Shown here in pieces: positions 2,421 through 21,933 of a stretch of 33,715 nt of DNA. The notes beneath the pieces are model-generated. The model did not search any database. It was not told the DNA's origin and saw nothing but the letters and a program-made list of their open reading frames with translations. Location: the IMG/VR virus record IMGVR_UViG_3300032236_000480, positions 1 to 33,715 of that record. One strand, written 5' to 3'. The position numbers and the translations under genes are program-made. This DNA comes from a virus. Within the stretch, counting starts at the first letter, position 1, and each line of letters begins with the position of its first letter.

Positions 2421-5400
2421 ATGGATTTCCAACCCGCTAGTCAAAATGGTGTTATTCCTCCCTCAGAGTTGGGAACACTACATTCAAGATTTGGTACATT
2501 GATCAGTACAACCAGTACAGTCTATGGACGTCCTGTTATTATCAAGGCCATTAGCGATGCCGCCATGTACAAAACAGAGCCTGTTAGTTTCTACACTCAA
2601 TACACAACAGGATCTGTTACCACAACTGTTCTACTAGGCGAAAGTCAATTTATCAAAACAGAATATGCGGCATTGGTTACTACCGCACTAGGCACAGGCA
2701 CACATCAGGTCTATGCCACATGGCCAGGTGAAGGCAAATATGCGGCTGTGTCAACAATCACAGCACCTATCACGGTCAGTGTTGCCAGTGGTTATCCTCT
2801 AGGAGCACCTATTGTTCTAACACCAGATCATCCTACTAACACGGTCATTGCTGGAGATGCTACGCCAATTACATTTACTGCGTCAATCACAACTGGCACA
2901 CAATTGGTAGGCAATGTTATCTTTTATAAAGATCATATTGAGATTGGCACTGGACAATTACAGAACAACTACAGCGGATCATATGTGGCCAGCATTACTA
3001 TTAATGATCTGTCTGGTGGTGATCATGTTATTACTGCGGTATGGCCAGGATCAACCATTGGTGGCGTAAACTATCAAGGGTTAACTACAGATCTTGCCTA
3101 TTCAGTACTACGTGGACGTACAATTACACAGCCAATGACCCTAACACTAGATCCTAGCCATGGTATTGTTGGTGAAGGACAGATCAATATTACTGCGGCT
3201 ATTTCAACAACTACACAATTACCAGGCACAGTCTATTTCAGCGTAGATGGTATGGATCTATACAACACACCATTTGTCAACAATGCCGCAACTATCTCAA
3301 TTCCTAATACCTATGCGCTTGGTGATCACTCATTTACAGCACGTTGGGATGGTAATCAGTCTGGCACACCTAAATACATTGAAAAGGCCACAACATCAAC
3401 ATGGACAGAATATGCTAGAGAGAATCCAGGTGAATTAACAGTCACAACACAGCCAGCAGATCACAATGCCTTTGCCTATGATACCGTATTGGTAGGTACA
3501 TTCTCAACTTCAACCAGCGTACAAGGCACAGTCTTGTTCTTTGATCAGTTTGCGGCCATTGGATCAGCACCTATTGTCAATAACAGCGCAACCTTTGTCA
3601 GCCATGGCCTAAGCACAGGTACACACCTAATACAGGCCTATTATGGAGGTAGCGCAACTGCGCCTAAGTACTATTCAGCATTGAGTTCAACTGCTACATT
3701 GTTGATCACTGAAGGCGTTGAAATTCCTGCTAACATTACAATGGATGTTACCAACGACAGTTATGCTGGAATCCGTACGCCATATATCATTGGCGAAACA
3801 CAAACAATTACAGCAAGTATTTCAACTTCAACTAGCCTAGTAGGTGCTGTTGAATTCTATGCTAATAATCAATTAGTTGGTCTAGGCAACTGGAGTGGTA
3901 ATCAAGCCAGCGTTAATACAGTATTCAACGCAACTGGCACACAGGTTGTAAGAGCACATTGGCCGGGACAGAGCATTGGTGGCACATTCTATTCTACTAA
4001 GGATAGTTTGACAGCCAGTGTAACCTTACTGCCAGGATATACTCTAACACCGCCAATTACCCTAAGCGCACCAGGACCAAAAGTCTACAATCAACCCGTT
4101 ACTCTATTTGCCAATGTAAGCACAAGTTCAAGTATGGCCAATGGTGTTGATTTCTATGTTAACAACTCATTTGTTGGAACAGGTAACTTTAATCCAACAA
4201 CTAACAGCGCAACTCTTGTTACCAATGTGTTTACAACTACAGGCAATTATCTATTGTCAGGACATTGGACAGGTGGATACATTGATGACCATAGATTATA
4301 TCTAGGTAAAGATACCAACACAGCCAGCATCACAGTGGTTGAAGCATTGACATTCCCTGGAGCATTGACCTTAAGTTCTACTCCAGCATATCAATTCAGC
4401 ACAACCAGCGTGACTTTATCAAGCAACTTTGGTAATACTCTAACTGGAACTATAGTTTACAAAGAATATGTCTACGATAACAATCAATACACGTTTGTAA
4501 CCACTGCTACTACATCAGTACCAACTTATTCTGAACCTGGAACATTGGCTGATTATGGTGGAGGTAACGCCGCGGCAACTCCTATTGGATTTGCCACTAA
4601 ACAACCATTCTCAATTGGACCAACTCATTATCCAGGCGGAGATGCTACTGTAAAAATTTATAGTCCTGATTTAAATTTTACAACCTATGCTTATGTTGAA
4701 AGTCATTATTATGAAACATCATACTATGGCATTCAACCTTTCTGGAATACATTATTTGTTCCATTGTCAGGACTTGGAAAAGATGGAAAATTAAATGTAT
4801 TTGAATTATTATACAATCACTACTGGCCACTAGCCACTATTGATGATCCATCAATTACTGATCCTGCGCAACAATCAAGATTAAGGCAAGCCGCAATTGA
4901 TGATTATGATAAGGCCTTAAAACGACTACAGTTTAGCATAGGATCATATCAGTCTAATAGCAGTTTTGGTCAATTGAAATATGTGTCTACATTGACTACT
5001 TCTACCTACACAACTACTCTACGTGTAAGACCAGTGGATTTCTTTGTAACCAACAGTTCTACACACAAAGTTCAAGTTGAATGGCTTGGCGGAAACATTG
5101 ATGGAGTAAGATATTTTGGTACATCAAGTAACACAGCCACAATGGCTGTAACTACTGCGTCAATTCAATTTGGTCCTAAATTTGTTGTTGGACAGGAAAG
5201 TCAATACCAACAGAAACCATATAGTTCACAACTAGTATTCACAGCAACTTTCAATACAAGCACTATGGATTCAGTAGCCTTACAATTGATGGACAATGGA
5301 GTTCCAGTCCAAACTTCTACAGTGGTTGGAAATTCAGCAACTTGGGTTCTAAGTCCAAATACATTGCCTATAGGAGAACACAGATTGTATGCTCAATACA

Positions 5401-5456
5401 GCGGACATTCTACTGTAACTAGCAATGTAAGCATATGGAAGATAACATCAGCATAA
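2421..5456 (+). CDS. Giant Ig-like repeat tail adhesin (eight Big_3/Big_5-type domains)
   Basis: 1011 residues made almost wholly of ~100-residue bacterial Ig-like domains. Each has the pattern 'ITASISTSTxLxGxVxFY..(N)G..xG...N..A...(T)GTHxxxAxWPG'. The diagnostic end motif recurs eight times, near residues 92, 199, 300, 399, 506, 607, 881 and 985. Domain 7 is split by ~180 residues (about 685-865) with a different composition: aromatic-rich, with a helical stretch (QSRLRQAAIDDYDKALKRLQ). No signal peptide or membrane segment is seen, as expected for a virion protein. The role is inferred as an extended tail fibre or surface-binding spike. The start follows AAGGATAAAGAT, a leader shared by several genes here. 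A gap with a hairpin and a TAAATA element follows. Confidence 0.75.
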   Translation: MDFQPASQNGVIPPSELGTLHSRFGTLISTTSTVYGRPVIIKAISDAAMYKTEPVSFYTQYTTGSVTTTVLLGESQFIKTEYAALVTTALGTGTHQVYATWPGEGKYAAVSTITAPITVSVASGYPLGAPIVLTPDHPTNTVIAGDATPITFTASITTGTQLVGNVIFYKDHIEIGTGQLQNNYSGSYVASITINDLSGGDHVITAVWPGSTIGGVNYQGLTTDLAYSVLRGRTITQPMTLTLDPSHGIVGEGQINITAAISTTTQLPGTVYFSVDGMDLYNTPFVNNAATISIPNTYALGDHSFTARWDGNQSGTPKYIEKATTSTWTEYARENPGELTVTTQPADHNAFAYDTVLVGTFSTSTSVQGTVLFFDQFAAIGSAPIVNNSATFVSHGLSTGTHLIQAYYGGSATAPKYYSALSSTATLLITEGVEIPANITMDVTNDSYAGIRTPYIIGETQTITASISTSTSLVGAVEFYANNQLVGLGNWSGNQASVNTVFNATGTQVVRAHWPGQSIGGTFYSTKDSLTASVTLLPGYTLTPPITLSAPGPKVYNQPVTLFANVSTSSSMANGVDFYVNNSFVGTGNFNPTTNSATLVTNVFTTTGNYLLSGHWTGGYIDDHRLYLGKDTNTASITVVEALTFPGALTLSSTPAYQFSTTSVTLSSNFGNTLTGTIVYKEYVYDNNQYTFVTTATTSVPTYSEPGTLADYGGGNAAATPIGFATKQPFSIGPTHYPGGDATVKIYSPDLNFTTYAYVESHYYETSYYGIQPFWNTLFVPLSGLGKDGKLNVFELLYNHYWPLATIDDPSITDPAQQSRLRQAAIDDYDKALKRLQFSIGSYQSNSSFGQLKYVSTLTTSTYTTTLRVRPVDFFVTNSSTHKVQVEWLGGNIDGVRYFGTSSNTATMAVTTASIQFGPKFVVGQESQYQQKPYSSQLVFTATFNTSTMDSVALQLMDNGVPVQTSTVVGNSATWVLSPNTLPIGEHRLYAQYSGHSTVTSNVSIWKITSA

Positions 5457-6044: not shown

Positions 6045-7898
6045 ATGCCTTCAACAAACAACACAATTATTATTGAGGTTCAAGAACCCAATGTTGTTGT
6101 TAATGAAATCACAAATGAAGTAAAGATCAGTACTACTTCATCAATTGTAACTCTTAATACACAACCAACAATATTTCAAAATATTCCAGTGCCAGGAGCG
6201 ACTGGAGCACAAGGTGCCACTGGTGTCCACGGAGACCAAGGTATACAAGGACCAATGGGTCCTCAGGGCATCCAGGGCATTCAAGGACAGACAGGCGCAA
6301 CTGGCCCTACAGGTGCGACAGGACCACAAGGAAATATTGGCGCTACTGGATCAACAGGACCACAAGGTCTACAGGGATCAACCGGAGCACAGGGCGAAAA
6401 AGGCAATGATGGCGATCATGGAGCCACAGGTGCCACAGGACCACAAGGACCAGTTGGCCCAGGCGGAACTAACGGAACAGATGGTGCCACAGGTGCTACG
6501 GGACCTTCAGGTACTAACGGTCTAAATGGTGACCCAGGCGCAGATGGTGCTACTGGAGCAACAGGACCACAGGGCCCTCAAGGAACATCAGTTGTCTTAA
6601 AAGGTTCAGTACTGACATATTCAGCACTACCAACTGATGCCGCAGTAGGTGATGGATATATTGTTCTTGATCAAGACGGACACCTATTTGTCTGGGGTGA
6701 TGATGCCGCTTGGCATGATGTAGGACGAATTGTAGGACCTATGGGTGCTACAGGACCACAGGGCCCAAGCGGTGACATTGGACCACAAGGTACACAGGGT
6801 AATAATGGAGCCACCGGTGTTCAAGGTGCTACTGGTCTACAGGGTATTCAAGGTCCTGCGGGAACAAATGGTACAAATGGAAATGATGGCGCAACTGGAG
6901 CACAGGGTCTACAAGGAGCCACAGGAAGTCAAGGACCACAGGGCGTTCAAGGAGCAACAGGACCACAAGGTTATACAGGTAGCACAGGTGCTACGGGATC
7001 AGCAGGTCTAACTGGAGCAACAGGAAGTCAAGGACCTACAGGTGCCCAAGGCGGCGCTGGTGCTACGGGTGCCACAGGTGTACAGGGTGCTAGTGGTAAG
7101 GGCTATAGTGGCCTAACCTCAAGTGATACCAAGACAGTTGGACTGGGTATTCTAAGCATTGATGTAAACCAAAGTGCTGGAACCAACGCATTTAGTGTAG
7201 GTACATTTGTTTCATTGAGTGGTGGCAGTGGCAAGGTAATGGCAGGTCCAATTACTTCCTACTCATCAAACAACATGCAGATCAACGTGATCTACACAGC
7301 AGGTACGGGATCAAGTTCAAGTTGGACATTTAGTGTATCAGCGGCCCCAGGCGCTACAGGTCCATCAGGATCCAATGGTGCTACTGGATCAACAGGACCA
7401 CAGGGCGTTCAAGGAGCGACTGGATCACAAGGACCAAATGGAGCAACTGGATCAACAGGACCTTTAGGTGCTACTGGATCACAAGGACCCGTAGGTGCTA
7501 CAGGTGCTAGTGGACCAGGTGCCAACCAAACACTTGATACTTCTAGTAATGTTACATTTGCCAGTGTTAATTTAGATGGACTCGTAAATATGAGTGCGTA
7601 TTCTACCAGTGGAGTCTCAGGAACAACTCCTGTGGCCATTGGTGGTCTAGACACAGGTTCTTATTCATCAGCAAAGTACTTCATTAAAATTAGTGATGGA
7701 AGCAATTGGATGATACAGGAAATTGTGCTATTTGCCGACGGAGTTGATATCACCGCCAGCAGATATGGGGAATTAGATAACAATGGATCACTAGGTTCAT
7801 TCAGTTATGGATATTCTGGAGCGATCGCTGTGGTAACATTCACTCCTACAGCGGCAACAAACTTAACAGTGAATTCACAAGTAACTTATCTGGTCTAA
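6045..7898 (+). CDS. Collagen-like tail fibre 1
   Basis: 617 residues. The N-terminus (1-49) is a unique anchor with no match to the next two fibres. Three Gly-X-Y collagen blocks (about 50-180, 231-350, 436-493; mostly GATGPQG and GATGSQG) are separated by two globular inserts. Insert C (181-229) carries VGDGYIVLDQDGHLFVWGDDAAWHDVG, split here as VGDGYIV and GHLFVWGDDAAWHDVG, a module frequent in phage collagen proteins. Insert A (351-435) starts with GYSGLTSS and ends with SSSSWTFSVS. The C-terminal tip (494-617) is beta-rich and resembles the tip of fibre 2. It should form trimeric fibres on the tail tip, with the tip domain the likely receptor-binding head. Confidence 0.8.
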   Translation: MPSTNNTIIIEVQEPNVVVNEITNEVKISTTSSIVTLNTQPTIFQNIPVPGATGAQGATGVHGDQGIQGPMGPQGIQGIQGQTGATGPTGATGPQGNIGATGSTGPQGLQGSTGAQGEKGNDGDHGATGATGPQGPVGPGGTNGTDGATGATGPSGTNGLNGDPGADGATGATGPQGPQGTSVVLKGSVLTYSALPTDAAVGDGYIVLDQDGHLFVWGDDAAWHDVGRIVGPMGATGPQGPSGDIGPQGTQGNNGATGVQGATGLQGIQGPAGTNGTNGNDGATGAQGLQGATGSQGPQGVQGATGPQGYTGSTGATGSAGLTGATGSQGPTGAQGGAGATGATGVQGASGKGYSGLTSSDTKTVGLGILSIDVNQSAGTNAFSVGTFVSLSGGSGKVMAGPITSYSSNNMQINVIYTAGTGSSSSWTFSVSAAPGATGPSGSNGATGSTGPQGVQGATGSQGPNGATGSTGPLGATGSQGPVGATGASGPGANQTLDTSSNVTFASVNLDGLVNMSAYSTSGVSGTTPVAIGGLDTGSYSSAKYFIKISDGSNWMIQEIVLFADGVDITASRYGELDNNGSLGSFSYGYSGAIAVVTFTPTAATNLTVNSQVTYLV

Positions 7899-7929
7899 TT
7901 AACCAGACACACTATAGGAACAAATTGAC

Positions 7930-9741
7930 ATGTCAACAACAGAAAAGTATTTTAGAGTAGGTAATGGTTTACAGTTTCCTGATGGAACCTATGTAACCAC
8001 AGCCGATGGTCTAGTAGGCGCAACGGGCGCAACTGGTCCGCAAGGCGACAAAGGCGATAAAGGAGACATGGGCGACCAAGGTCTTCAAGGAGCAACGGGT
8101 GCTACAGGCCCACAAGGCGACCAAGGTTTACAAGGCGCGACAGGTTCAACAGGACCATTAGGTCTAAGTAGTTCAGTATTCAATTATATTACTGGAACAA
8201 AGTTTGCCTGGGGTGAACCAGCCAGCGGTCATATTTTATACAACGCAGGTGATTACAACGCAACTCCTCCAGGTGGATCACATATACTTGGTGTAAGCAC
8301 TGTCAATGCCAATGGTGTTGATGCTACCAACTATTTGAGTAACCTAAGAGTTGGTCAACAGATCATCATTAATGATGCCAGTAACTCTGCCAACTATCAG
8401 ATCTATGTAGTAACAGCCGCTCCAACTATCGAAGCAGGATCTACTGCTTGGGCATATATCCCAGTTGATCCAGTTGACATGGGCGGAACTGGTTACAATG
8501 GTTTCAATGAAGGAACACCAAGTGTATTCAGTATTCAACCAATGGTTGGTGCTACAGGCCCACAAGGCCCACAAGGTGACATGGGCAATGATGGTGCCAC
8601 TGGAGCAACTGGACCTCAAGGGGACAAGGGTGATAAAGGCGATACAGGTAATGATGGAGCAACCGGTGCTACAGGTCCTCAGGGTCCAGCAGGTGCCAAC
8701 GGAACATCAGTTACTATCATTGGCACAGTTCCAAGTTATATTGATGATGCTACACTAAACGCAATATTTGACACAGCCGTAGCAGGCAATGGTGTTATCG
8801 CAGAAGACACAGGACACTTATGGGTCTATAGCGGATCTACTGTCTGGGCTGATGTAGGACAAGTCAAAGGTGACCAAGGTAATCAAGGTGCCACTGGAGC
8901 AACAGGACCACAAGGCGACAAGGGCGATATGGGAGACCAAGGCGCTACTGGAGCAACTGGACCTCAGGGTGACAAGGGTGACAAAGGAGACATGGGTGAT
9001 AAGGGCGATAAGGGAGACATGGGTGACCAAGGTATTCCTGGCACATTCCCAAGCCCAATGAACTCAACAGCCAATGCTAGTTTAGACATTGTATTGACCA
9101 CAGGTGGTCTACCATACACAGCAGACTATGGTGTCTATGCTAACCCATTAACTGGTATCATCCAAGCAGGTGGTTATGTAGCGGCTGAAGGCAGTGGCGC
9201 AACTAATGGTTACGCATTCTCTGAAAGTGCTCAAGACACTGGAATGTATTCTAGTGGTGACGGCAATATCAACTTCTACAACAATGCTGTAGAAACTGTT
9301 GTTGCTACATCAGCAGGATGGCAATTCCAACAACAGGTCCAAGCACCTAAGGTCTACATCCCAGAAGGTGATTCTGATGTAACTCGTGATATTATTGATG
9401 GTGATTCTGTTAAGGTCAGCACATTCTATTCAAGTGCTATCACAGGAACTTCAATTGTTCCGTTGTCACAAATTCCAGCAGGAACTTATACAACTGTTAA
9501 GTATTTGATACAGGCAATTGACACAGCATCAGGAACTACACGCATTCATTCACAAGAAATGACCTGCGTATACGCAAATGGTGACCTGTTTGAAACTGAA
9601 TATGGAATTATCTACAGTGACGCAAGTCTAGGTGATTTCAACAATGTAATCAGTGGTAGCAATATTGTTCTACGATATACACCAGCAAACGATATTACCA
9701 GTGTAAACATTGTAGTCTATATAACCAGCATCGCGGCTTAA
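7930..9741 (+). CDS. Collagen-like tail fibre 2
   Basis: 603 residues. The N-terminal ~30 residues ([21 protein letters not shown]) nearly match fibre 3, suggesting a shared docking site. Collagen blocks occupy about 30-78, 206-258 and 314-371. They are rich in charged GDK/GDM triplets, unlike fibres 1 and 3. Insert B (79-205, from SSSVFNY to SVFSI) is homologous to the insert of fibre 3. Insert C (259-313, ending GHLWVYSGSTVWADVG) is homologous to that of fibre 1. The C-terminal ~120 residues resemble the fibre 1 tip. A strong GC hairpin follows the stop. Predicted receptor-binding side fibre; the collagen call is firm, the binding target is unknown. Confidence 0.8.
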   Translation: MSTTEKYFRVGNGLQFPDGTYVTTADGLVGATGATGPQGDKGDKGDMGDQGLQGATGATGPQGDQGLQGATGSTGPLGLSSSVFNYITGTKFAWGEPASGHILYNAGDYNATPPGGSHILGVSTVNANGVDATNYLSNLRVGQQIIINDASNSANYQIYVVTAAPTIEAGSTAWAYIPVDPVDMGGTGYNGFNEGTPSVFSIQPMVGATGPQGPQGDMGNDGATGATGPQGDKGDKGDTGNDGATGATGPQGPAGANGTSVTIIGTVPSYIDDATLNAIFDTAVAGNGVIAEDTGHLWVYSGSTVWADVGQVKGDQGNQGATGATGPQGDKGDMGDQGATGATGPQGDKGDKGDMGDKGDKGDMGDQGIPGTFPSPMNSTANASLDIVLTTGGLPYTADYGVYANPLTGIIQAGGYVAAEGSGATNGYAFSESAQDTGMYSSGDGNINFYNNAVETVVATSAGWQFQQQVQAPKVYIPEGDSDVTRDIIDGDSVKVSTFYSSAITGTSIVPLSQIPAGTYTTVKYLIQAIDTASGTTRIHSQEMTCVYANGDLFETEYGIIYSDASLGDFNNVISGSNIVLRYTPANDITSVNIVVYITSIAA

Positions 9742-9751
9742 TACGCACAAT

Positions 9752-9779
9752 GGGGGTGAAAAGCCCCCTCACTATTTTA
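9752..9779 (+). terminator. Terminator-like hairpin after fibre 2
   Basis: GGGGG (9752-9756) pairs with CCCCC (9764-9768) across TGAAAAG. TCACTATTTTA follows, so the T-run is imperfect. It lies between fibre genes 2 and 3 and probably reduces downstream transcription or stabilises the upstream mRNA end. Confidence 0.55.
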
Positions 9780-9805
9780 TCCTTAAGTGGAATATGGAAA
9801 CTTAA

Positions 9806-11701
9806 ATGAGTTCAAATGAAAAGTATTTTAAAATTAAAAATGGCCTACAGTTTGATGATGGCACTTATGTTACAACGGCCGTTGGCTTCGTAGGAGCCAC
9901 AGGTGCTCAGGGAAATGTTGGCGCAACAGGTAGCGCAGGCCCTACTGGGGCCACAGGGTCGCAAGGCCAGACAGGTGCCACAGGTAGTCAGGGATCGCAG
10001 GGTAATGTTGGTGCGACAGGTGCTCAGGGCATACAAGGAGCCACCGGGACCCAGGGTCCTCAAGGCGCTACTGGACTTGTTGGAGCAACTGGATTAACTG
10101 GAGCCACTGGATCAACAGGTGCTACAGGACCACAAGGTGTGTCCAGTAACATATTCCACTACAAGGCCAATACTACCAATCATTCTACTTCAACATATAC
10201 CAACAATGGCTTTATAGATTGGGATAATGCCACACAGATCAGTTCTGGCAATCTAATGTTTAGTCATTTGACTACTGATGGTATTGATATTGACATTTTC
10301 CTAGCCCTATTAGAAACCAGTCAAAAGATCATCATTCAAGATGAAAATCAAAGCAATAATTATCAATCTTGGCAGATCACATCAACACCTGTTCACAATG
10401 TCAGTGGTGCGGACAGTTGGTGGGTAGTTCCTGTTACATTGTTAGGCAGTGGTGGCACAGGAACCACAGGATTTAGCAACAACAGCCAAGTTATTCTGGC
10501 TTTGGCATCTGGTTCACAGGGTGCTACTGGTGCTACAGGACATCAAGGAGCCACAGGTGTTAGCGTTACTGGAGCAACGGGCGCAACTGGACAGACTGGT
10601 AATCAAGGCGCTACTGGTGTCAAGGGAGATACCGGTAATCAAGGCGCTACAGGTGTCATGGGCCCAAGTGGTAATGATGGTTATATGGGTGCTACTGGTG
10701 CCGCAGGACAACAAGGCGCTACAGGAAGTCAAGGCCCAGCAGGTGCTACGGGCTCACAGGGATCACAAGGAAATCAAGGAGCAACAGGTGTCGCAACAAC
10801 AGGAGCAACTGGATCACAAGGCGCGACAGGCGTTCAAGGTAATGTGGGCGCAACAGGAGCCACTGGAGTTCAAGGAACACAGGGTCTCCAAGGTGCTACG
10901 GGTGTCACAGGAGGAGTTGGTGCGACTGGTTCAGCGGGCTCCGCAGGTAACACGGGTGCGACTGGTGCCTCTGGCCTAGGTTATGCGGCATTAACTTCAA
11001 CTACTACGCGATCTACTGGATCAACAGGAAGTCAAACTTGGACTGTTAACTTAGATGCTAGTCAAAGTGCGTTTATAGCAGGTCAACGAGTACGAATAAC
11101 TCCTACAGCAGGTTCAGGTTATATTGAAGGTAATATTAATTCTTATTCTGGAACTAGTTTAACTGTTAACATTAGTTATTTGGCCAGCACTGGATTAAAT
11201 TATAGTGCTTGGACATTTAGTATAGCAGGAGATTTAGGTTCTACTGGACCTACTGGAGCAACAGGAGCAACAGGAACAGGTAACCCAGGAGCAACGGGTG
11301 CTACTGGATCAGCAGGTGGTGTGGGTGCTACAGGAGCCGCAGGTTCATTTGCCACAGCAGAAACACTATACTCAGGTTGGGGCTCAGTTTCAGCAGGTAC
11401 CTACAAGATTGATGTGTCATCAGGAACTGTTCACAAGATGACCCTAGCCGGTAACTTTGTGTTTGACGGATTCACTACACCAACCACCGGAACCTCAGTT
11501 ACAGTTCTAATGCGTCAAGATGCTACTGGTAGTAGACTATTGTCAACATCAACCAACGCCAACACAGTATGGGCAGGTGGTGTTAAGACCCTGTCAACAG
11601 TGGGTAACTCCAGCGATGTTCTAACTCTGTTCTATCAAGGTGCTACAGGTGGATCAGTTGGTGCTTACATTGCTACACTATCTAGAGGATACACCAGTTA
11701 A
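9806..11701 (+). CDS. Collagen-like tail fibre 3
   Basis: 631 residues. The N-terminal anchor [20 protein letters not shown] is paralogous to that of fibre 2. Collagen blocks lie at about 30-111, 237-390 and 478-514 and are almost uncharged (GATGSQG, GATGVQG). Insert B (112-236) matches fibre 2; insert A (390-477, [10 protein letters not shown] to SAWTFSIAG) matches fibre 1. The C-terminal tip (515-631, [19 protein letters not shown]...) is of a type seen on other phage fibres and differs from the tips of fibres 1 and 2. The stop TAA shares its last A with the next ATG (TAATG), so the LamG-like protein gene is translationally coupled. Confidence 0.8.
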
Positions 11702-14430: not shown

Positions 14431-14856
14431 ATGAGTGCGTATAAACATTACCTATTCAAACGTTGGAAGAACATGCTAGATGGCTGTCACAATCCCAATG
14501 TCAATGCTTGGGCCAGTAATGGTCGTCATGGAGTCAAGGTATGCCGTCGTTGGTATAACTTTTGGTCCTATGTAGAAGATATAGAATCTACACTGGGCAT
14601 ACCCATTGGTGATCGTAACAAGTTGGGTCGAGTCAATCGCAATAAGAATTGGCAACTGGACAATGTACGTTGGATGACCACTACTGAATTGGCCAGAACA
14701 CGTATTGACAACACCTTATTCAAATACAAGCGTTCATGGTATACTATTCCAGAACTGGCTGAGATATCAGGTGTTAACAAGGCCTGCTTATTCAGTAGAC
14801 TGTATGAATATGGATGGACAGTTGAAGAGGCTGTCACTGGAGTAAGACATGGCTAA
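14431..14856 (+). CDS. Degenerate HNH-like DNA-binding protein 1
   Basis: 141 residues. The opening RWKNMLDGCHNPN...HGVKVCRRWYNFWSYVED and the later GRVNRNKNWQLDNVRWMTTTE follow the phage HNH pattern 'RWxxMxxRCxNPxxxxYxxYGGRGIxVCxxW...LDRIDNDGNYxPENCRWAT'. The canonical LDRIDN acidic/His core is replaced by LGRVNR, so catalysis is doubtful. The C-terminus (105-141) adds a helix-turn-helix-like part (TIPELAEISGVNKACLFSRL) as in NUMOD-type modules. Likely a site-specific DNA-binding protein or decayed homing nuclease. The start follows GGAGATATAAAGAT. Confidence 0.6.
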   Translation: MSAYKHYLFKRWKNMLDGCHNPNVNAWASNGRHGVKVCRRWYNFWSYVEDIESTLGIPIGDRNKLGRVNRNKNWQLDNVRWMTTTELARTRIDNTLFKYKRSWYTIPELAEISGVNKACLFSRLYEYGWTVEEAVTGVRHG

Positions 14857-16892: not shown

Positions 16893-17333
16893 ATGATAGT
16901 AAATGGTAAGAAAATTAACAAGCAGAACTTTGCTGACTACACTAAGATCAGTGCCCGTGCTGTGGCACGATTTCATCACATAGACAAGATCATGTTCGCC
17001 ATGAGTCCCTTCTTGACGACAGAAGAGACTTATAAGATTATGGACGCTATGGAAAAAATGGCTGAAGGTAAGTTAGAGACCAACTGGTCAGCCAGTGATG
17101 CTATCATGTTCTGTAGAGAAACTATTGGCAATGATCGCTGGAACGCATTGGAAATGATCTGGGAGATTAACAGTCAAAATGCTCTACAGAGTCTATACAA
17201 GCCAGAAGAACTGCGTGACGCATGGGTACACAAGATCAGCATGTGCGAAGGTACAGCCGAAGAAGTCGCGGCCAACCCAGACAGTTACATTCTAATCAAA
17301 ACTACCAAAAACATGAACCAGTTGAATGGATAA
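16893..17333 (+). CDS. Unknown helical protein (146 aa)
   Basis: The start follows AAGGATTTGTAGAT. The protein is soluble and mostly helical (ARAVARFHHIDKIMFAMSPF; DAMEKMAEGKLETNW), with no recognised motif. It overlaps the PPK2 gene by 8 nt, so the two are translationally coupled and may act together. Confidence 0.6.
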   Translation: MIVNGKKINKQNFADYTKISARAVARFHHIDKIMFAMSPFLTTEETYKIMDAMEKMAEGKLETNWSASDAIMFCRETIGNDRWNALEMIWEINSQNALQSLYKPEELRDAWVHKISMCEGTAEEVAANPDSYILIKTTKNMNQLNG

Positions 17334-18075
17334 TGATTACAACCTTATCTCTGAACAAGAATATGAAGATAGGAAATATCTTCTCCAATGTGAACTGCTC
17401 AAATGGCAACAGTGGGTCAAAGAACAACAGACACAGCATATTATCCTGTGTGAAGGACGAGACGGTGCGGGCAAGACTGGATTCATTAAGCGAGCGTTTA
17501 TGGAACACCTTAATTCGCGAACAGCCCGTGTTGTGGCTCTTGATAAGCCCTCAGAATCAGAACGAGCAGAATGGTATTGGCAACGTTATATTAGACAATT
17601 CCCGCGAGCAGGAGAAATCACCGTCTGGGACAGATCGTGGTACAACAGATCGTGGGAACCTATTATGGGCTTCTGTACTGCCGAGCAAACAGATGCTTTT
17701 TATAGAGAGTGCCCCAAGTTGGAACGTATTTGGGTTCAAGCCGGAATCCAAATAATCAAGTTCTGGTTTAGCATTACACAAGAAGAACAACAAAGACGAT
17801 TTACAGAAAGGGCTACACATCCACTTAAACTGGGTAAACTCAGTGACGTTGATCGTGCTAGTATGACACTTTGGGAAGACTATGGCAGGGCCAAAGACCG
17901 CATGTTCAAACAGACTAGTAGACCAGAATGCCCTTGGATACAGATCAAGTCAAACTGTAAACGTAGTGGTAGAATAGCCGCACTACAATACATCCTACTT
18001 AAGAATGACTATCCGGATCGTAACCTAGCCAATATTGGTTCCATAAATAATTCCATACTCAAGCAAATAAATTAA
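17326..18075 (+). CDS. ppk2: Polyphosphate kinase 2 (PPK2) family nucleotide kinase
   Basis: 249 residues, normal length for single-domain PPK2. Walker A is GRDGAGKT (44-51). Walker B is WDRSWYNR (101-108) after the family block ERAEWYWQRYIRQFPRAGEI (79-98), and MGFC (114-117) follows. The lid region HPLKLGKLSDVDRASM carries the conserved Lys residues, followed by the DYGRAKDRMFKQTS helix and a PWIQIKSNCK strand. PPK2 enzymes move phosphate between polyphosphate and NMP, NDP or NTP; which step this one favours cannot be read here. It could regenerate nucleotides from host polyphosphate during infection. Last gene of the accessory operon, followed by two terminators. Confidence 0.88.
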   Translation: MDNDYNLISEQEYEDRKYLLQCELLKWQQWVKEQQTQHIILCEGRDGAGKTGFIKRAFMEHLNSRTARVVALDKPSESERAEWYWQRYIRQFPRAGEITVWDRSWYNRSWEPIMGFCTAEQTDAFYRECPKLERIWVQAGIQIIKFWFSITQEEQQRRFTERATHPLKLGKLSDVDRASMTLWEDYGRAKDRMFKQTSRPECPWIQIKSNCKRSGRIAALQYILLKNDYPDRNLANIGSINNSILKQIN

Positions 18076-18084
18076 GAACAAAAA

Positions 18085-18128
18085 ACTATCCAATCTAGCC
18101 GTAATGGGCATTTCTCCGGATGGTTTTT
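18085..18128 (+). terminator. Terminator 1 after the PPK2 gene
   Basis: ACTATCC (18085-18091) pairs with GGATGGT (18118-18124, one G-T pair), enclosing an inner GCC/GGC stem, followed by TTTTT. Confidence 0.65.
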
Positions 18129-18130
18129 AT

Positions 18131-18164
18131 TGGGCCCGATTCTAGATCATGGGCCCATTTTTTT
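18131..18164 (+). terminator. Terminator 2 after the PPK2 gene
   Basis: TGGGCCC (18131-18137) pairs with GGGCCCA (18151-18157) over a 13-nt loop, followed by seven T. Strong and placed directly after terminator 1, so the accessory operon is firmly separated from the AAA ATPase gene. Confidence 0.85.
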
Positions 18165-18178
18165 GGATCCAAAATCTA

Positions 18179-18212
18179 TTGACGATCACCAAGAACAACT
18201 GTATAATAAATA
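18179..18212 (+). promoter_or_regulatory. Sigma-70-type promoter with overlapping TAAATA
   Basis: TTGACG (18179-18184), a 17-bp spacer, TATAAT (18202-18207): near-perfect consensus. TAAATA (18207-18212) overlaps the end of the -10 box. The surrounding 17 bp are identical to 14397-14413. It drives the AAA ATPase and the two genes after it. Confidence 0.8.
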
Positions 18213-18238: not shown

Positions 18239-18251
18239 TACATAAAAAGCC

Positions 18252-18271
18252 GCTAACACTACGGTGTTAGC
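18252..18271 (+). other. Leader hairpin 2 with C(UACG)G tetraloop
   Basis: GCTAACAC, loop TACG, GTGTTAGC: a perfect 8-bp stem closed by C-G around a UNCG-type tetraloop, an exceptionally stable RNA form. It precedes the AAGGAG ribosome-binding site of the gene at 18305. Confidence 0.75.
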
Positions 18272-18304
18272 ACCAACCAAAATTGAAACTACTAAGGAGT
18301 TTAT

Positions 18305-19141
18305 ATGAATACTAATGGTCAATTCGCAACGGCTAAGACAAGCAAGCCAATCTTCCGCATCAATCCAATCGCCAAAGAAGTCCAGGATGTTTTTGACAGC
18401 ATCTATGGACAAGTAAGTGATTTTATTAAAAATCCTAATTCAGCAATGAACGGTATCATTGTTAGTGGCGACGCAGGTACAGGCAAAACCTATACTGTTA
18501 AAAAAGCACTTATTGATAATGGACATCAAAAGAATGTTGAATATATTAAAGGTGGTAAGATCACAGCGGCCAGTCTATATGTTAAACTGTATTTGAATCG
18601 TGCCAAACACAGAATCATTGTACTAGATGACTGTGATATTATCCATCACCAAGACAAAAATCAAATTGTTCCTATGCTATTAGGTGCGGCTGATCTCGGG
18701 CAGAAACGTGATGTTAGTTGGGAAACTGCTCGTAAGAATCCACTTATGGAAGAATACAATGTTCCCCATAATTTTAAGTTTGAAGGTAAGATTATTTGGA
18801 TTACTAACGACCGCCGTGAGCAGATCAACAAGGCAGTAAAACAATGGGCTATGGCTCTAGACAGTCGCTTTGGTTTTACTAAATGCTATTTTACTGATGA
18901 ACAAAAACTCATGTACACTCTACATCTTGTAGAACATGCCGACATGTTAGGAGAAAATTGTCAAGAGTACGAAGGTGGATATCCTGAAGATATCATAAGT
19001 GATGCGCTTGATTACATGACAGAAAACTATCGTTATTTGGTTGAAGTCACTCCTCGCCGTGCTATTATGATTGCGGACATTATGAATCAATGTAGTGATC
19101 CTAAACAGTTAAAAGAACGTCTTCGTCAACTTTGGAAGTAA
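18305..19141 (+). CDS. AAA-family ATPase
   Basis: 278 residues. Walker A is GDAGTGKT (55-62), Walker B is IIVLDD (104-109), and a sensor-1-like Asn is in IIWITNDR (near 170). The N-terminal ~45 residues look like a helical adaptor. An arginine-rich C-terminal helical lid carries VTPRRAIMIADIM. This is the only clear DNA-metabolism-like ATPase in the window, but its substrate is unknown: a helicase/clamp loader, DNA-remodelling or host-directed role are all possible. It has its own promoter, two stable leader hairpins and a strong AAGGAG site, suggesting high and separately timed expression. Confidence 0.75.
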   Translation: MNTNGQFATAKTSKPIFRINPIAKEVQDVFDSIYGQVSDFIKNPNSAMNGIIVSGDAGTGKTYTVKKALIDNGHQKNVEYIKGGKITAASLYVKLYLNRAKHRIIVLDDCDIIHHQDKNQIVPMLLGAADLGQKRDVSWETARKNPLMEEYNVPHNFKFEGKIIWITNDRREQINKAVKQWAMALDSRFGFTKCYFTDEQKLMYTLHLVEHADMLGENCQEYEGGYPEDIISDALDYMTENYRYLVEVTPRRAIMIADIMNQCSDPKQLKERLRQLWK

Positions 19142-19144
19142 ATC

Positions 19145-19648
19145 ATGACCAATACTAATACAACAGAATGGGGTAATATTGAATTACCTGGATTGAGTGA
19201 TGAGGATCTTTTTAAGAAAGATTGGAATAAGGTTGCCGCGGCAAGAGAAAGAGCCAAAGATCCTATTATTAAACTTAAACTAAGTAAGGCCAATACTGGA
19301 AAAATTCACAGCGAGGTTACTAAGAAAAAATTAAGAGAAATTAATACAGGAATAAGTAGACCAGCATCAGAAAAAACAAAAAAACTTATCTCTGAAAAAA
19401 AGAAGGGATGTATTAATCCAAACAAAGGAAAAAAATTAGGCCCTTCTGGAAGAATTGTTTCGTTAGAAACTAAGAAAAAACTTTCTAAAGCAATTAGTAA
19501 GCCGTTTATTACTCCAACAAAGGTGTTTGATAGCCAACAATTAGCGGCTGAACATTATTCTAAAATTTGGAATATTAAGGTCAATAGTGCTTTACGTAAG
19601 ATACAAGATTTAATGAAAAAATTACCTAATGAATGGAAATACAAATGA
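19145..19648 (+). CDS. NUMOD3-type DNA-binding protein without nuclease domain
   Basis: 167 residues, very Lys-rich. The opening TEWGNIELPGLSDEDLF is typical of phage free-standing homing-type proteins. NUMOD3-like units follow at about 46-68 (SKANTGKIHSEVTKKKLREI), 69-88 and 96-118 (GPSGRIVSLETKKKLSKAI). The C-terminal module (120-167, TPTKVFDSQQLAAEHY and LPNEWKYK) is like the DNA-contacting end of Seg/HNH homing enzymes. No GIY-YIG or HNH catalytic part is present. Local A-rich codon use differs from its neighbours, suggesting acquisition. Likely a decayed or adaptor homing protein. Confidence 0.6.
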   Translation: MTNTNTTEWGNIELPGLSDEDLFKKDWNKVAAARERAKDPIIKLKLSKANTGKIHSEVTKKKLREINTGISRPASEKTKKLISEKKKGCINPNKGKKLGPSGRIVSLETKKKLSKAISKPFITPTKVFDSQQLAAEHYSKIWNIKVNSALRKIQDLMKKLPNEWKYK

Positions 19649-20159: not shown

Positions 20160-20504
20160 ATGGAACTTGAAAAAAAATCAAGTGGACATGGTGGAGTTCG
20201 TGAAGGTAGCGGACGCAAGCCAGGCTCCACACAAAAACTATCAGCCAAGGAAATCCTGGCCGCCATTGAAGCCACTGCTAATGGCACACCATATGAAGTT
20301 ATCTTGGCCAATGACTTTCTACAGGCACGCTACGGTGATGACAAGCATCTAGTGGCCAAGTATCACCAATTGATCCTAAGCAAGGTCATTGCTGACAAGG
20401 TTGATATTACCTCAAACGGGCAAAGCATTGCTCCAACATTGACATTTGCCAAGAGTGAATTGCCTGACTATACAGAGCAAGTGATTGATGTCAAACCAAC
20501 ATAA
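20160..20504 (+). CDS. terS: Terminase small subunit
   Basis: 114 residues. The N-terminal GHGGVREGSGRKPGSTQK is the basic, Gly-rich start seen in many phage small terminases. Helical segments follow (AKEILAAIEATANGTPYEVI; HLVAKYHQLILSKVIADKVD). It lies next to the large subunit and overlaps it by 17 nt. The role is recognition of the packaging site and regulation of the large subunit. The lack of a ribosome-binding site and the adjoining TAAATAC suggest a leaderless message. Small for the family but complete. Confidence 0.75.
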   Translation: MELEKKSSGHGGVREGSGRKPGSTQKLSAKEILAAIEATANGTPYEVILANDFLQARYGDDKHLVAKYHQLILSKVIADKVDITSNGQSIAPTLTFAKSELPDYTEQVIDVKPT

Positions 20505-21933
20505 TATAACGCTCTATGGAGCACAGGATGAAGTATGGTCAGCGTTCTTAAGTGAGAAGAATGTCTGCGCTGTAGTTCCTGTTGGATCAGGTAAGAGTTT
20601 TCTAGCAAGTTTATTCCTACCCATAGCGGCCACAACTCCTACAATACATAAAGGCAAGGACATTCTTTATGTTGCTCCTACTGCTCCTATGATCGCACGT
20701 ATCATTTGGAAGGATTTAAAACAACGCTGTATCTCAATGTGGGGCCTGGAAGATGAAAAGCATATTAATAATTCTAGCAAGACTATCACCTTTCCTAACG
20801 GTATTAGAATATTTTGCCTATCTGCTGAGACAGGGCTTAAAGGTATTAATGCCGGACTTATCGTCTGTGATGAAGCCGCAGAGTTCAGTGACGAAAGCCT
20901 ACAAGAACTATCTAATCGTATCCGTCCAACACCAGGACAATTGGACAGTCAAGGTCGTCTTGTGCTTATCTCAACCCCAGAAGGAAAGAATGCTTTCTAT
21001 GACTGGTTCCAACATGCTACAAGTCACCCAGAATCATGGATTGTTATTCATAAGACCTGGGAACAGATGCGAGTCCAACCTAGAAAGTGGGTTGAAGAAC
21101 AAAAGTATCTACTCAGTCCACTAAAGTTTAAGAAAGACTTGGAGTGTGATTGGGGATCAGTACAGGATCAATTCTTCTACTCATGGCGCCGTACTATGGC
21201 ACAGATGGAACCTACACGTGATCGCGGTAAGGAACTATTCACGTGTCATGACTTTAACAAGAAACGCATGGCCGCTATTGTGGCACAGGTTGTGGGCGAT
21301 ATTAGAACTAATACAGGGCGTTTAGAAATACTAAAGAGTTACGCGATCAATGATTGCGGTACAGAACAAATGGCACAGGCCATACGTGCTGACTTCCCAC
21401 ACCGTCCACTCTATGCTATTATGGATCGAAGTGGTAGTCAACTTAATCGTGACACAACAAGTCAATTTGGTACTACTGACCAGACCATTCTAGAAAAGTA
21501 TGGATTCCGTATACATAATACTGCCAAGAGTAACCCACTAATCAGTGACAGTGATAACTCTAGCAACGCATTCATAGCACAGGGTAGACTTATTGTGCCA
21601 CAGAATGAAATCATGTTACTAGACGCACTTGAGACCTATCACTATGAAGATGGCTCACGTAAGAAACTAGTAAAATACCCCGAAGCCAAGTACATGCACA
21701 TTGACGGCCTGGGTGACTGCCTGCGATATGGCATTCACCACTTGTTCCCAATGACGCACGAACAGCCTACACTACCTGAATACATTGATGGAGACTTCCA
21801 AGCGTCAGTTGAGCCAGGTAGTGATTATATGCGTGATCCTAATGCTCGTAGCAAACAAGATGGCATGCCAACCATTGATCATCTAATTAAAACACGCTTC
21901 TTTGACCAAAATAGTGAAGAATATTGGTCGTAA
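20488..21933 (+). CDS. terL: Terminase large subunit
   Basis: 481 residues from the ATG at 20488 (the TTG just before is less likely). The ATPase domain has Walker A PVGSGKS (31-37) and Walker B LIVCDE (124-129), followed by the coupling motif VLISTPEGK. The nuclease domain has acidic residues at D255 (TCHDFNKK), D313 (AIMDRSGS) and D410 (GLGDCLRYG), the RNase H-like triad. It translocates DNA into the prohead and cuts concatemers. It starts inside the 3' end of the small subunit gene, so the two are translationally coupled. Confidence 0.92.
   Translation: MSNQHNITLYGAQDEVWSAFLSEKNVCAVVPVGSGKSFLASLFLPIAATTPTIHKGKDILYVAPTAPMIARIIWKDLKQRCISMWGLEDEKHINNSSKTITFPNGIRIFCLSAETGLKGINAGLIVCDEAAEFSDESLQELSNRIRPTPGQLDSQGRLVLISTPEGKNAFYDWFQHATSHPESWIVIHKTWEQMRVQPRKWVEEQKYLLSPLKFKKDLECDWGSVQDQFFYSWRRTMAQMEPTRDRGKELFTCHDFNKKRMAAIVAQVVGDIRTNTGRLEILKSYAINDCGTEQMAQAIRADFPHRPLYAIMDRSGSQLNRDTTSQFGTTDQTILEKYGFRIHNTAKSNPLISDSDNSSNAFIAQGRLIVPQNEIMLLDALETYHYEDGSRKKLVKYPEAKYMHIDGLGDCLRYGIHHLFPMTHEQPTLPEYIDGDFQASVEPGSDYMRDPNARSKQDGMPTIDHLIKTRFFDQNSEEYWS

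Follow-up and report, generated by a model that had tools for sequence, protein, structure and literature searches.

The locus and its surroundings

The window, by which we mean the whole stretch of DNA analysed here, is a linear virus record of 33.7 kb from IMG/VR, and because its last open reading frame runs off the end, the record is a fragment. Among its phage genes are those for the terminase, portal, scaffold, major head and tape measure proteins and for a collagen-like fibre. Upstream of the terminase gene lies an open reading frame whose product, by sequence and predicted fold, is a class I polyphosphate kinase 2 (PPK2; Table 1). Its start overlaps the end of the preceding gene in the eight bases ATGGATAA, an arrangement that suggests translational coupling, and the two hairpins on its 3' side, the second of which has a terminal T-run, fold with -31.9 kcal/mol (z -2.8). 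An Rfam scan of the window gave no matches. The sequence-only reading of this DNA had placed the action of the enzyme late in infection, for which the layout offers no support: the PPK2 gene closes its run ahead of the terminator-like hairpin, and a promoter-like site stands upstream of the terminase. Its remark that the phage has no visible nucleotide-synthesis genes is likewise unsupported, given a record that is a linear fragment.

Several other features of the window deserve mention. Three long tail-fibre genes with collagen repeats follow one another at 6045-11701 (617, 603 and 631 aa) and form an unusually large set of collagen-like fibres, and a protein of 1011 aa in which Big_3_5, a bacterial Ig-like domain, occurs six times (2421-5456) is probably a tail or adhesion protein. 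The PPK2 region is flanked by an HNH endonuclease-like sequence (14431-14856) and a NUMOD3/homing-endonuclease-like one (19145-19648), both possible mobile endonucleases. A hairpin, GCTAACAC-TACG-GTGTTAGC, at 18251-18272, upstream of an AAA ATPase-like gene at 18305, is terminator-like on the minus strand.

Table 1. Features of the PPK2 locus, in window coordinates
Feature	Position	Strand	Remarks
Upstream gene, 146 aa, function unassigned	16893..17333	+	8-base overlap with the PPK2 start; neighbour also conserved in sister phages
PPK2 gene	17326..18075	+	249 aa, ATG start, TAA stop; signature residue N107 marks it as class I
Walker A GRDGAGKTG, residues 44-52	17455..17481	+	T51 at a site that is G in nearly all bacterial class I enzymes
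Extra codon GCG (A57) after P-loop helix	17494..17496	+	in no other PPK2 compared
Walker B DRSWYNR (17629-17649) and S109-W110 (17650-17655)	17629..17655	+	in relatives, three residues of A-x-V type
Lid R158...R162...K168LGKLSDVD176	17797..17853	+	G170 in place of bacterial lid Trp
Two hairpins then T-run, TGGGCCC...GGGCCCATTTTTTT	18080..18163	+	terminator-like, directly after PPK2
Promoter-like TTGACG-17-TATAAT	18179..18207	+	upstream of next genes; consensus match only
Terminase large subunit	20485..21933	+	lineage marker used to find syntenic PPK2 copies

Family, fold and catalytic residues

The Pfam profile for PPK2, PF03976, matches the product with 243.4 bits (cut-off 22.3, E 2.9e-72), and a sequence search of the PDB places it nearest to the class I enzymes of F. 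tularensis (FtPPK2, E 2.3e-76) and S. meliloti. Its score against the NCBIfam equivalog TIGR03707, 286 bits, falls below the cut-off of 301.8. The same profile passes four of eight viral relatives that carry glycine in the lid and misses the other four, among them L010, which is incomplete at its contig end; the two bacterial PPK2 proteins tested scored 382 and 391 bits, both well above the cut-off. Thymidylate kinase or another P-loop kinase as the best match can be rejected, with TIGR00041 at 15.2 bits against a cut-off of 83.25 and AAA_33 also under its own. No PHROGs family was found for the protein, and PADLOC, run on the window, did not match it. The four motifs from which the sequence-only reading had named the gene are present in this open reading frame, GRDGAGKT at residues 44-51, ERAEWYWQRY at 79-88, DRSWYNR at 102-108 and KLGKLSDVD at 168-176, and the Walker motifs as defined for PPK2 (PMC11641546) are found as D46-GAGK50 and R103-SWY106.

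The predicted structure agrees with this assignment. An AlphaFold model computed from a 52-sequence alignment has a pLDDT of 94.1 (without an alignment the model was unusable) and superposes on polyphosphate-bound FtPPK2 (PDB 5LL0) with a TM score of 0.94 and an rmsd of 1.1 Å. In a PDB fold search with the model, the best 50 matches shown were all PPK2, and the PPK2 fold with its lid is present. Profile, PDB sequence match and fold thus bear out the PPK2 identity originally proposed.

Residue by residue, the active site of FtPPK2 is largely recovered. Both catalytic aspartates are kept, D62 and K66 corresponding to D46 and K50 of the window protein and D117 and R118 to D102 and R103, while H76, R174, R178 and K184 correspond to H61, R158, R162 and K168, and K228, K229 and R232 to K212, R213 (a conservative change) and R216. 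The polyphosphate-binding set of lysines and arginines (K50, R103, R162; R158, K168, K212, R213, R216) is therefore present. In FtPPK2 the substitutions K66A, R118A and R178A weaken polyphosphate binding and remove most of the activity (PMC8776046); the roles of H76, R174, K184, K228, K229 and R232 have also been described (PMC4748334). The asparagine that follows the Walker B motif and defines class I (PMC8776046) is N107 in the window protein, and asparagine occupies this column in 152 of the 154 aligned rows.

A phage branch with an altered lid and P-loop

We aligned 154 PPK2 sequences and computed a 101-row maximum-likelihood tree. The sequences with glycine at the lid position, 33 in all, are without exception viral (the window and 32 others) and lie on one side of a single branch (support 100/100), apart from the bacterial homologues; tryptophan stands at this position in every one of the 79 bacterial rows that have a residue there. 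The lid motif recognised earlier is thus present, but in altered form, KxWKLS having become KLGKLS, so that the bacterial pattern KxWKLSPxD is absent from the window protein. Nested within the branch is a subclade of 11 sequences (support 98/94) in which threonine or serine replaces the glycine after the Walker A lysine, a single change on the tree from GKG to GKT or GKS. It comprises the window and its phage group (L124, L125, L130, L141, L142, L171, L172) together with L178, L029 and L034, which have no other gene in common with the window; the 22 remaining lid-glycine rows retain GKG. On these sequences the window PPK2 belongs to a branch found so far only in phages. GKT by itself is not uniquely viral: the Novosphingobium genome of locus L100 encodes a second PPK2 (L273), class I-like, that has GRDTAGKTG with a normal tryptophan lid and represents an independent case.

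Where synonymous change is measurable, the clade is under purifying selection, with NG86 dN/dS values of 0.11 (L003/L017), 0.17 (L124/L125) and 0.20 (L124/L130), and 0.29 for L171/L172, which differ by few changes; between the window and L010 dN is 0.21 and synonymous change is saturated.

The gene also lies at the same place in related phages. Sister phages were sought through relatives of the terminase, and in five of them (L124, L125, L130, L141, L142) PPK2 lies, as in the window, between the homologue of the 16893 gene and the terminase. Three more (L171, L172, L241) retain one side of this arrangement and two (L135, L136) have a C-terminal PPK2 piece at a contig edge; at the corresponding place in L127, L133, L143, L144 and L152 no PPK2 match was present. 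The copies in the first eight, beside the same neighbours, are 54-60% identical to that of the window, and those aligned share the lid glycine and a Walker A threonine or serine but do not have the two single-codon indels described below; in L124, L125 and L130 the C-terminus ends earlier. The closest relatives by identity are on unrelated phage contigs (e.g. L002, L003, L010, L013, L023, L173, L190), whose lid-glycine enzymes fall in the same clade at about 50-72% identity and have GKG in Walker A, or GKS in L029 and L034, where the window has GKT. These contigs have no other gene in common with the window except for one weak endonuclease match, and their phage genes near PPK2 include DNA polymerase, helicase, exonuclease and virion transglycosylase. 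Stretches of IMG/VR that encode PPK2 relatives number 327, an upper bound on phage carriage because some are probably host-derived DNA. Calling the function uncommon for a phage is therefore a relative matter, given this count and the same placement in sister phages. Among public entries, a protein of 419 aa from a marine phage, entered as "thymidylate kinase" (BFVD A0A8D9CF65), has the PPK2 fold (TM 0.94, 38% identity) and is probably a misnamed phage PPK2.

Two changes are private to the window copy. Among the 154 aligned sequences, it alone has the inserted A57 behind the P-loop and the loop DRSWYNR-SW-EP, in which the three-residue stretch of the others, mostly A-x-V, has become SW with the loss of one codon (AGV to SW). 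The earlier description of the gene as apparently intact holds for its full length and its motifs; it is not quite right for these two single-codon indels beside motifs, one of them in the nucleotide-binding loop.

Predicted function and relation to known enzymes

Given the family, fold, catalytic and polyphosphate-binding residues, synteny and viral clade described above, we consider it probable that the gene encodes a phage-resident class I PPK2, tuned at its lid and P-loop, that uses host polyphosphate to phosphorylate nucleoside diphosphates. The reaction, polyphosphate plus NDP to NTP, is predicted from the polyphosphate-binding residues, catalytic aspartates and class I asparagine shared with FtPPK2. 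During infection the enzyme would take up host polyphosphate and hold it in a basic tunnel under the lid; the end phosphate would be transferred in line to an NDP (ADP or GDP) while the Walker motifs hold Mg2+; and the resulting NTPs would feed phage transcription, replication or packaging as host energy metabolism falters. NTP regeneration from host polyphosphate, as first suggested, is accordingly the role best supported by family, fold and residues, its late timing excepted. The effect of the substitutions in lid and P-loop is probably an adjustment of lid closure, of Mg2+ binding or of the substrate range and not a loss of activity, and the altered nucleotide-binding loop may have shifted the base preference of the window copy or changed its activity. 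Counting against this reading are the clade-wide loss of the lid tryptophan, the additional P-loop-proximal residue and the shortened, tryptophan-containing loop of the window copy, and the TIGR03707 score below cut-off.

More tentatively, the phage-only branch may have been remodelled stepwise, first in the lid (Trp to Gly), then in Walker A (Gly to Thr or Ser) and finally in the nucleotide loop of the window copy, towards a new donor or acceptor range, for example that of a polyphosphate/NTP-dependent kinase for (deoxy)nucleotide supply in phage replication.

A drift in function of the phage clade, in which it regained the canonical GK[T/S] P-loop and lost the lid tryptophan to become an NTP-dependent (d)NMP/NDP kinase or to use another nucleotide set, with polyphosphate as a minor donor, appears unlikely. 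Serine or threonine after the Walker A lysine is a ligand of Mg-NTP in most P-loop kinases, and the nested, clade-wide substitutions affect two catalytic elements, as this explanation would have it. Yet the polyphosphate-binding residues are all retained, a new donor does not follow from GKT, which the bacterial L273 combines with a normal lid, and the lid-glycine rows outside the subclade keep GKG.

That A57 and the SW loop are damaging mutations, or errors of assembly, so that the window copy was recently inactivated or altered while the rest of its phage family is functional, seems to us quite improbable. Both changes are private; one adjoins Walker A and the other falls in the nucleotide loop, where the lost valine is inferred from the alignment to match I130 of EbPPK2, a residue in the wall of the nucleobase pocket (PMC12257356). 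Within the loop change the 11 nt ACAGATCGTGG occur twice, at 17630 and 17645, as a direct repeat, which protein-preserving codon shuffles recreate at that spot in 79 of 5000 trials, giving modest support to a local copying event behind the SW loop; a search of IMG/VR for the loop DRSWYNRSWE found it in no further contig. Against inactivation, both indels are in frame and the reading frame is full length, and, once the two indels and P64S are set aside, conserved sites of the copy are not altered in excess, which disfavours general pseudogene decay. AlphaFold, a poor test of such damage, accepts both changes when given the alignment (pLDDT 94).

Recent capture of the gene from a host, or a contig of host DNA wrongly called viral, can be dismissed as highly improbable, since phage genes flank the PPK2 gene, the arrangement is syntenic in sister phages, the tree sets it apart and the best bacterial homologue among the matches listed in a GTDB scan is only about 54-55% identical, against 72% for the best viral one (among the matches listed from 398 genomes of one phylum, identity is at most 55%). 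Such contamination is probably real for some public matches: a record labelled Acinetobacter phage (L281, CAKLQH020000005.1) has recC beside a polyphosphate:AMP phosphotransferase and looks like bacterial DNA, and L193-L196 group with the S. meliloti PPK2.

Taken as a polyphosphate-using class I enzyme, the window PPK2 is a resident gene of its phage lineage within a viral clade that spans unrelated phages, and it shares with that clade an active-site change that none of the bacterial homologues compared has. This makes phage use of host polyphosphate as an energy store testable and supplies natural lid and P-loop variants of a family of enzymes employed to regenerate ATP. Viral carriage of ppk2 is not new, and the window gene is a variant of one already known from viruses: passages of PMC9636769 and PMC13188868 list virus-encoded ppk2 as an auxiliary metabolic gene, there merely one among many, and the latter cites a 2025 Water Research study on virus-encoded polyphosphate kinases. 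A limited literature search found no description of a viral PPK2 clade with lid and Walker A substitutions.

The closest characterised relative, FtPPK2 (PDB 5LL0, 5LLB, 4YEG), shares the fold (TM 0.94, rmsd 1.1 Å) at 49% identity, and the two proteins have in common the Walker A aspartate and lysine, the Walker B DRSWYNR, the polyphosphate-binding lysines and arginines and the class I asparagine. The window protein differs in the glycine that replaces the lid tryptophan, in GKT for GKG in Walker A, in one additional residue behind the P-loop and in a nucleotide loop one residue shorter, with SW for AGV. The PPK2 proteins of uncultured phages of 635-735 kb (LR745206, LR756502, LR756501) are phage-borne like that of the window, but they form a separate, distant branch and retain the lid tryptophan where the window has glycine.
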